Position numbers and translations under genes: made by a program. This document shows, piece after piece, positions 18,242-45,543 of a stretch of 64,000 nucleotides of DNA. How positions within the stretch are numbered: the first letter of the stretch is position 1; each line of letters begins with the position of its first letter. Below the pieces are notes generated by a model that had not been told where the DNA came from, ran no database searches, and saw nothing but the letters and a program-made list of their open reading frames with translations. The stretch comes from Pseudomonas oryzihabitans (GTDB taxonomy: Bacteria > Pseudomonadota > Gammaproteobacteria > Pseudomonadales > Pseudomonadaceae): the NCBI RefSeq assembly GCF_024652905.1, contig NZ_CP102428.1:2864501-2928500 (forward strand), in the 5' to 3' direction.

Positions 18242-18384
18242 GGGCTGTGTCTAAAAAAGTGCCTGCGCTCGGTCATGCTGCGTTAAAAATCCGTTCGGAA
18301 TGCTCATTTACCACTCGTAAACTCCGCTTCCTCACGGATTTTTGCCTTGCTTGACCTTCGCTCGGCTACTTTTCAGACAAGCCC
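18242..18384. repeat. long hairpin element with invariant 40-nt core, copy C1
   Basis: About 143 bp. The outer arms GGGCTGTGTCTAAAAAAGT (18242-18260) and ACTTTTCAGACAAGCCC (18368-18384) pair imperfectly; an inner stem AAAAATCCGT / ACGGATTTTT-like pairs at 18284-18293 and 18333-18342. The centre 18295-18334 is a 40-nt stretch identical, as reverse complement, to 45450-45489. It sits just downstream of the PhoH gene (stop 18391) and before moaC, and could also act in transcription termination of phoH. Confidence 0.85.
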
Positions 18385-45375: not shown

Positions 45376-45398
45376 AGGCCGGGCTTGGAGCCCGGCCT
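45376..45398 (-). terminator. terminator-like hairpin just before yjiA
   Basis: AGGCCGGGCT / AGCCCGGCCT (45376-45385, 45389-45398) forms a perfect 10-bp stem with a 3-nt loop; on the minus strand CTTTCTGTCTGG follows, 20 bp before the yjiA ATG. It should cut readthrough from cstA-yjiX into yjiA unless controlled. Confidence 0.7.
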
Positions 45399-45543
45399 TA
45401 GAACCTGCTCACGATCTCGCGAGCTAGAGACAAACAAGGCGAAAATGGCTGAGGAAGCGGAGTTTACGAGTGGTAAATGAGCATTCCGAAGGCATTTTCA
45501 ACGCCGTTTGGCCGACGCGCAGCAGATCGTGAACAGGTTCTTA
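45399..45543. repeat. long hairpin element with invariant 40-nt core, copy C2
   Basis: About 145 bp. Outer arms AGAACCTGCTCACGATCT (45400-45417) and AGATCGTGAACAGGTTCT (45524-45541) pair with one mismatch, and an inner stem GAAAATGGCT / AGGCATTTTC pairs around 45441-45450 and 45490-45499. The core 45450-45489 is identical to 18295-18334 on the other strand. It lies inside an operon, between yjiX and yjiA. Confidence 0.9.

Follow-up and report, generated by a model that had tools for sequence, protein, structure and literature searches.

ERIC, also known as IRU or RU-1, is a 127-bp enterobacterial MITE that forms a single long hairpin, as do the elements described here. Its core, TCA-CTTAC-N4-GTAAG-CTCC, differs from the core TCA-TTTAC-N5-GTAAA-CTCC of the present family by one compensatory pair and one base of the loop, and the islands GCGTT and GCCTT lie on the same sides of the core in both. 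ERIC differs from the present family in its arms, ends, target duplications, host range, and length (127 bp versus 140–143 bp here). A further difference is that insertion sequence (IS) ends are identified for the present family, whereas no transposon for ERIC is named in the passages of the literature consulted. The distribution of ERIC is reportedly treated by Zo in 2011 and by Wilson and Sharp in 2006. Passages of a 2024 review place ERIC in Enterobacteriaceae and Vibrionaceae (PMC10969869), and passages of a 2008 survey list E. coli, Y. pestis, and V. cholerae for it and assign other families to P. aeruginosa and P. putida (PMC2267715). Here, in contrast, the host is Pseudomonas, and related loci occur in Halomonas, Nitrosomonadales, Alistipes, and one Rahnella.

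RUP from S. pneumoniae and other IS-borne MITEs likewise have ends that match an IS, TA-containing targets, and no transposase. According to passages of a 2007 review, RUP goes with one IS, IS630-Spn1, and IS matches to other such repeats were unsought or unfound (PMC2229807), whereas here one core occurs with several IS. YPAL (RU-2) is likewise an intergenic hairpin repeat with target duplications, and is set apart by its description in the same passages as 168 bp long, with termini lacking TA and with internal inverted repeats (PMC2229807). REP and REPIN sequences are likewise mobile, non-autonomous intergenic palindromes in Pseudomonas; as described in part of the source, REPs are 20–40 bp long and GTAG- or CGTC-tagged (PMC3733652), whereas the elements here have IS5-type terminal repeats with duplications. 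Among the matches listed from the open-licence literature, none describes the present family, with the P. aeruginosa and P. putida survey families known by description only; matches to the right half of the core sequence were unrelated by title, and none relevant by title was listed for the left half. As set out below, the element C1 very probably belongs to a family of MITEs (short DNA transposons that lack a transposase gene, here built as one long imperfect hairpin) with IS5-type ends around a conserved cassette whose core is shared with ERIC, and would be moved in trans by an IS5-family transposase.

Elements C1 and C2 and their genome-wide family

The window, which is the whole 64-kb stretch of DNA that was analyzed, contains the following features, with the moaC-like, phoH-like, ybdD-like, and cobW-like genes named by eye from open reading frames (ORFs) without a family search.

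18242–18384, + strand: element C1, 143 bp, subfamily C, flanked by moaC-like and phoH-like genes
18242–18257, + strand: left terminal repeat of C1, GGGCTGTGTCTAAAAA, resembling the IS5-family end GGGTTTGTCTGAAAAG
18280–18284, + strand: left island GCGTT, conserved
18285–18294, + strand: left strand of the covarying inner stem
18304–18311, + strand: left half of the core, TCATTTAC
18312–18316: variable 5-nt loop of the C1 core
18317–18325, + strand: right half of the core, GTAAACTCC
18334–18343, + strand: right strand of the covarying inner stem
18344–18349, + strand: right island GCCTTG, conserved
18369–18384, − strand: right terminal repeat of C1, GGGCTTGTCTGAAAAG read inward, with 1 mismatch in 16 to an end of a congener's 908–909 bp IS5-family IS
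45398–45400, − strand: right copy of the TAA target duplication of C2
45401–45540, − strand: element C2, 140 bp, subfamily A, 3′ of the ybdD-like gene and 5′ of the cobW-like gene
45453–45487, − strand: core hairpin of C2, the same 35 nt as in C1
45541–45543, − strand: left copy of the TAA target duplication of C2

The initial annotation had described the central 40 nt of C1 (18295–18334) as the reverse complement of the center of a second element, and this identity in fact extends to 41 nt, from 18294. As it had also stated, the outer and inner arms differ in sequence between the two copies yet pair with each other within each copy, and the shared islands that it had pointed out are the GCGTT and GCCTTG adjoining the inner stem. 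The second element does exist, but not at the length of 145 bp given for it: C2 proper is 140 bp (45401–45540), accompanied by the 3-bp TAA duplication. The ends of both C1 (143 bp) and C2 (140 bp) pair, and both elements are short and lack a transposase gene. With up to three mismatches allowed, the core pattern matches only C1 and C2 within the window and was found in none of 100 shuffles. C1 is flanked by TG on the left and TA on the right and thus has no clean target duplication, and a pattern search found no terminator or promoter near it.

The exact core occurs 33 times in the whole genome, so the pattern is genome-wide. A covariance model built from 31 of these 33 copies gave 88 matches at no fewer than 74 distinct places (13 matches were the opposite strand of the same place and one partly overlapped another), a minimum number, since scoring covered 150 of 2074 candidates. 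When folded singly, most of the 33 copies form one long hairpin, with L005, L015, and L032 folding wholly or partly otherwise. Both ends lie within six mismatches of a 16-mer in 61 of the 74 copies, the other 13 being dropped, and the lengths of these 61 are mostly 140–142 bp; the shortest is 87 bp and the longest 227 bp, with inserts accounting for the greater lengths. The copies fall into three subfamilies (A, B, and C) that have a common inner cassette and different ends. This cassette consists, in order, of the island GCGTT, a stem, the core TCA-YTTAC-loop-GTAAR-CTCC, a stem, and the island GCCTTG. At 30 loci with long flanks, a simple ORF caller placed 17 elements between co-directional genes, 10 between convergent genes, and 3 between divergent genes, with a stop codon exactly at the element boundary on 17 of 60 sides; some of these stops may have been created by the insertion itself, with one site checked (L269).

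Inserts of 14–17 nt with a tiny hairpin (CTGGATCGCCAGCCCGG, TCGAGCGCGAGTCCGA) or of the form GCGGGGCCGCCTAGG occur at recurring sites within elements, and are present in the copy of one species and absent from the orthologous copy in another (L024/L232/L233, L018/L357, L295/L341, and L308/L369, which comprise C2 and other elements). A recurring insert of ~57–60 nt (GATTCGCTGGCGCTCACCCTTCGGGCCAGCC...) is found in the right arm of L005, L058, L059, and L342, and as its reverse complement in the left arm of L074, L094, and L167. ERIC is reported to carry inserts of about 70 bp, which these arm inserts recall.

Mobility and transposon ends

The C1 family is a mobile DNA element and not an RNA gene. 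Among 13 genomes of the genus, the C1 site is occupied in two (G000 and G001), holds an internally deleted copy in G010, is empty in seven, and is too diverged in three; the C2 site is occupied in four, lacks the element in six, and is unreadable in three. The remnant at the C1 site of G010 (L222) keeps subfamily C arms and is missing its center, as expected from palindrome-induced deletion. The clearest empty site is that of L269: G001 has AAC-TAA-GACGGG where the window's genome has AAC-TAA-[element]-TAA-GACGGG, a clean duplication of the TAA that serves the upstream gene as stop codon. The same site is also empty, in near sequences, in G006, G007, G009, G010, and G012; G011 has the element with inserts, G008 has ~660 other bases, G002–G004 show no flank match, and G005 carries an element of a different subfamily at the same spot (L032 versus L324). 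Another target site similarly holds different subfamilies in two species (L313 versus L359), and we read both cases as independent insertion or replacement. Target duplications vary with subfamily: perfect 3-bp duplications flank 16 of 42 subfamily A copies (15 TNA and 1 TCG; permuted mean 5.9, with 0 of 2000 permutations as high), TA is duplicated in 9 of 10 subfamily B copies, and a duplication is found in 1 of 9 subfamily C copies.

The transposase domain model PF01609 was searched in six genomes of the genus and matched in three (G007, G009, and G010); G000, G001, and G005 had no match. The window's genome had none at E ≤ 0.001, and its copies may therefore be stranded. Among the IS recovered, all placed in the IS5 family by PF01609, are some whose ends match the subfamily ends at 15–16 of 16 positions. 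The subfamily A partner (L253) is 846 bp long, has the two ends GAGCCTGTTCAAAATC and GAGCATGTTCAAAATC, and shows a TTA duplication; the subfamily B partners (L246 and L251) are 905 and 910 bp long with ends GGCTCTGTACGAAAAA or near; and the subfamily C partners (L250 and L254) are 908–909 bp long with ends GGGTTTGTCTGAAAAG or near, 1 mismatch in 16 from the right end of C1. Similarity between IS and element ends at ~17 bp from the terminus, so the elements are not plain deletion derivatives of the IS. A 909-bp IS5-family copy in G010 (L245, 1063–1971) has one C-type and one B-type end, each with the matching subterminal sequence, and looks like a hybrid of two IS. With the NCBIfam model NF033580 (IS5 family, cut-off 110), L245 scores 172.7 bits and L251 162.7 bits; the subfamily A IS, L253, is a fragment that scores 74.7 bits, below the cut-off. 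The subfamily C IS are identified by PF01609 only, at 66.4 bits for L250 and at 41.6 bits for L254, which has two stops inside; internal stops also occur in L246 and L252.

The 2-Mb genome G128 contains 185 copies, in what looks like a recent burst, and has elements nearly identical to those of Mariprofundales records. The element ends in G128 are GTAACTACTCAG, and perfect 8-bp duplications flank 5 of 11 loci examined (three in G128 and two in Mariprofundales records). A copy that lies inside an IS66 remnant in G128 also has a perfect 8-bp duplication, and the remnant's own end is GTAACTACTCAGCACCCC. This remnant matches PF03050 at 40.1 bits (cut-off 23.1) and NF033517 at 53.3 bits, below the cut-off of 180 because only 64 residues matched. 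A single cassette has thus been carried by both IS5-type and IS66-type ends, and element ends that match different transposons suggest what mobilizes each group. Some G128 copies (L205–L216) have an extra tail that ends in a second terminal repeat, with lengths of 121 versus about 153 bp. Two Bacteroidota genomes contain 43 and 7 matches to the 16-mer end, among them 7 and 1 inverted pairs at a spacing of exactly 120 bp; an inverted pair bounding an IS-sized insert, which would point to an autonomous IS, was not among the matches listed.

Arm pairing and the ERIC core

The initial annotation had taken the conserved loop and covarying stem as a signature of selection on structure, and the covariation is indeed far above shuffled controls in both alignments that we analyzed. 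In a MAFFT alignment of 31 of the genome's own copies, which leaves out two of the 33 that have inserts beside the core, 95.4% of cells are paired, versus 84.3% (sd 0.6) with shuffled and 31–51% with slid partners. Two-sided changes occur in 20 of 41 pairs, and one of five covariation measures, the number of further pair types, is unexceptional (63 of 500 shuffles as high). In a cross-taxon set of 95 model-fitted matches in 87 loci, 92.4% of cells are paired versus 69.9% when shuffled, and 38 of 41 pairs have two-sided changes; this alignment leans towards structure, the core had served to pick its loci, and two of its rows are opposite strands of each other (L141). Counting pairs whose commonest state is Watson-Crick, the 74 own copies have 81 G·T and 75 A·C mismatches in 2704 cells, and the 95 cross-taxon rows have 63 G·T and 83 A·C in 3188 cells. 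G·T is no commoner than A·C, which is not RNA-like because an RNA fold would favor G·U.

Copies at the same insertion site behave differently from copies at different sites. From 40 loci of G001 and six other genomes, we obtained 19 flank-matched pairs and used 14, of which three share C2 (one duplicate locus and four pairs with a different or unalignable element were left out). These same-site copies differ at 81 of 2001 sites, with 34 one-sided changes (8 to G·T, 15 to A·C, and 11 other) versus 5 two-sided changes in 665 pairs. In contrast, pairwise comparison of 20 subfamily A paralogues that are 8–15 sites apart gives 73 one-sided changes and 103 two-sided ones across 1953 pairs, although the two groups are imperfectly matched in divergence and the paralogue comparisons are non-independent. 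The arms thus covary between copies, and this covariation is lost in situ; we read this as pairing being maintained in transposing lineages and not in resident copies. A coding role was also considered, given that the reverse-strand core reads GGAG, hairpin, RTGA, often with an ORF running outward. In 208 non-identical elements, 74.5% are open for at least 15 codons in frame 0, 72.1% in frame 2, and 55.0% in mononucleotide shuffles; frame 2 is as open as frame 0 and the idea was dropped.

A scan of GTDB genome contigs for the exact core found at least 117 stretches, in Pseudomonas, Stutzerimonas, Azotobacter, Halomonas and relatives, Nitrosomonadales, Mariprofundales, one Oligoflexia, and one Rahnella, together with at least 25 Bacteroidota-labelled records (Alistipes, Rikenellaceae, Tannerella, and others), nearly all of them metagenome assemblies. 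Of 398 Pseudomonadota genomes, 53 contain the looser pattern TCAYTTACN{3,8}GTAARCTCC, and 0 of 398 contain its backward control. Matches of the form TCACTTAC-N4-GTAAGCTCC have the ERIC core, many of them in family f14, which is taken to be Enterobacteriaceae, with f9 and f16 taken to be Vibrio-like. In E. coli, an ERIC consensus retrieved three loci that represent two distinct copies, and these have GCGTT, the ERIC core, and GCCTT in the same order. With the islands defined as [CT]GTT on the left and GCCT[TCA] on the right within 32 nt, and playing no part in locus selection, both are present in 80 of the 113 named loci, in 8 of 11 panel loci of ERIC type and 11 of the 19 other panel loci, and in 2 of 2 E. 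coli copies; in reversed windows of the same four sets (named, other panel, ERIC-type panel, and E. coli), the left island alone occurs in 25, 4, 3, and 1 and the right alone in 8, 1, 1, and 0. Genomes G078, G264, and G270 have both core types, and L193 and L181 are intermediates in which GCGTTGG and GCCTTG accompany a core of ERIC type.

Model R2, trained on 57 rows that all have the TCATTTAC-type core and include one Rahnella row (L163), finds ERIC-type panel elements, themselves picked by core, at E values of 1e-5 to 0.03, except L188 (0.16). Against the E. coli ERIC loci it reaches E 0.1 only, through the core only, which is a weak point of the link, and model R1 gives no hit at E ≤ 1. Since the arms and ends are also unlike those of E. 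coli ERIC, the family is not classed as ERIC proper. A Rahnella (Enterobacterales) genome carries a Pseudomonas-type element (L163, 2567–2720) that R1 finds at E 5e-26, and both branches occur in Enterobacterales. The initial annotation knew of no named family for the element; we likewise found no name for the family itself, although it has the core of ERIC. The two probably share a common ancestor, and we call the family an ERIC-related MITE superfamily in which transposon ends would have been replaced and the core retained.

Alternative readings and proposed mechanism

The initial annotation had left the choice between a functional RNA and a non-autonomous mobile hairpin. The mobile hairpin is borne out by the empty sites, target duplications, and transposon-matching ends, and the functional RNA is not. 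A structured RNA, such as a 3′UTR or regulatory hairpin with its fold selected at each site, would account for the strong covariation in both alignments and for the position of 27 of 30 loci between co-directional or convergent genes, and ERIC hairpins change mRNA stability in Yersinia according to passages of the 2007 review (PMC2229807). We nevertheless regard it as very improbable: G·T and A·C mismatches are equally frequent, pairs are broken from one side between orthologous copies, most readable congeners have empty sites, and no Rfam model matches the element. Also improbable, if less so, is a core moved by its own enzyme, which would recognize the folded hairpin in a REP/RAYT-like manner and make the IS ends secondary. 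Conservation of the core whatever the ends, and a hairpin spanning the whole length, fit such an enzyme, but the target duplications (3-bp TNA, TA, or 8-bp) track the type of end.

The likeness to ERIC and across phyla could instead reflect convergence, with unrelated MITEs selected for the same core, for example as the site of a conserved DNA-bending protein. The outer arms, terminal repeats, and duplication lengths are wholly different between groups, and model R2 reaches E. coli ERIC only weakly and model R1 not at all, as described above, which favors convergence. Against this stand the islands at like places in both groups and the intermediates L193 and L181, and convergence seems rather unlikely.

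In the preferred reading, a MITE moved in trans, the outermost 16–17 bp on each side are terminal inverted repeats of IS5-family type. The IS5-family transposase that matches them would excise the element and insert it at TA or TNA sites, sometimes stop codons. The subfamilies carry the ends of different IS (three IS5-family types here and IS66 in Mariprofundales-type genomes) around one cassette. Complementarity of the arms could arise if one arm templates repair of the other, or if only symmetric copies transpose. Hairpin-templated repair is our preferred cause of symmetric end replacement, with gene conversion between copies as the alternative, and if one arm templates repair of the other, both ends would plausibly change in one step. 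The core would be retained if every transposing copy needs it, whichever enzyme acts. Most speculatively, the core and islands may have a role in transposition at the level of DNA.

Strong covariation without an RNA function is a caution for covariation-based RNA discovery. An ERIC relative with ends that match identified transposons also makes the mobilizer testable. Tentatively, and as something possible rather than probable, we suggest that the family is an ancient mobile hairpin module, with ERIC as its enterobacterial branch, that persists across phyla by switching transposase. The cassette would stay, and the two terminal repeats would change in concert to fit the active IS of the host (IS5 types or IS66), plausibly by arm-templated repair, and the core would be a transposase-independent signal for transposition or replication. 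For a parasite, keeping a MITE core through successive changes of transposase would be an unusual strategy.
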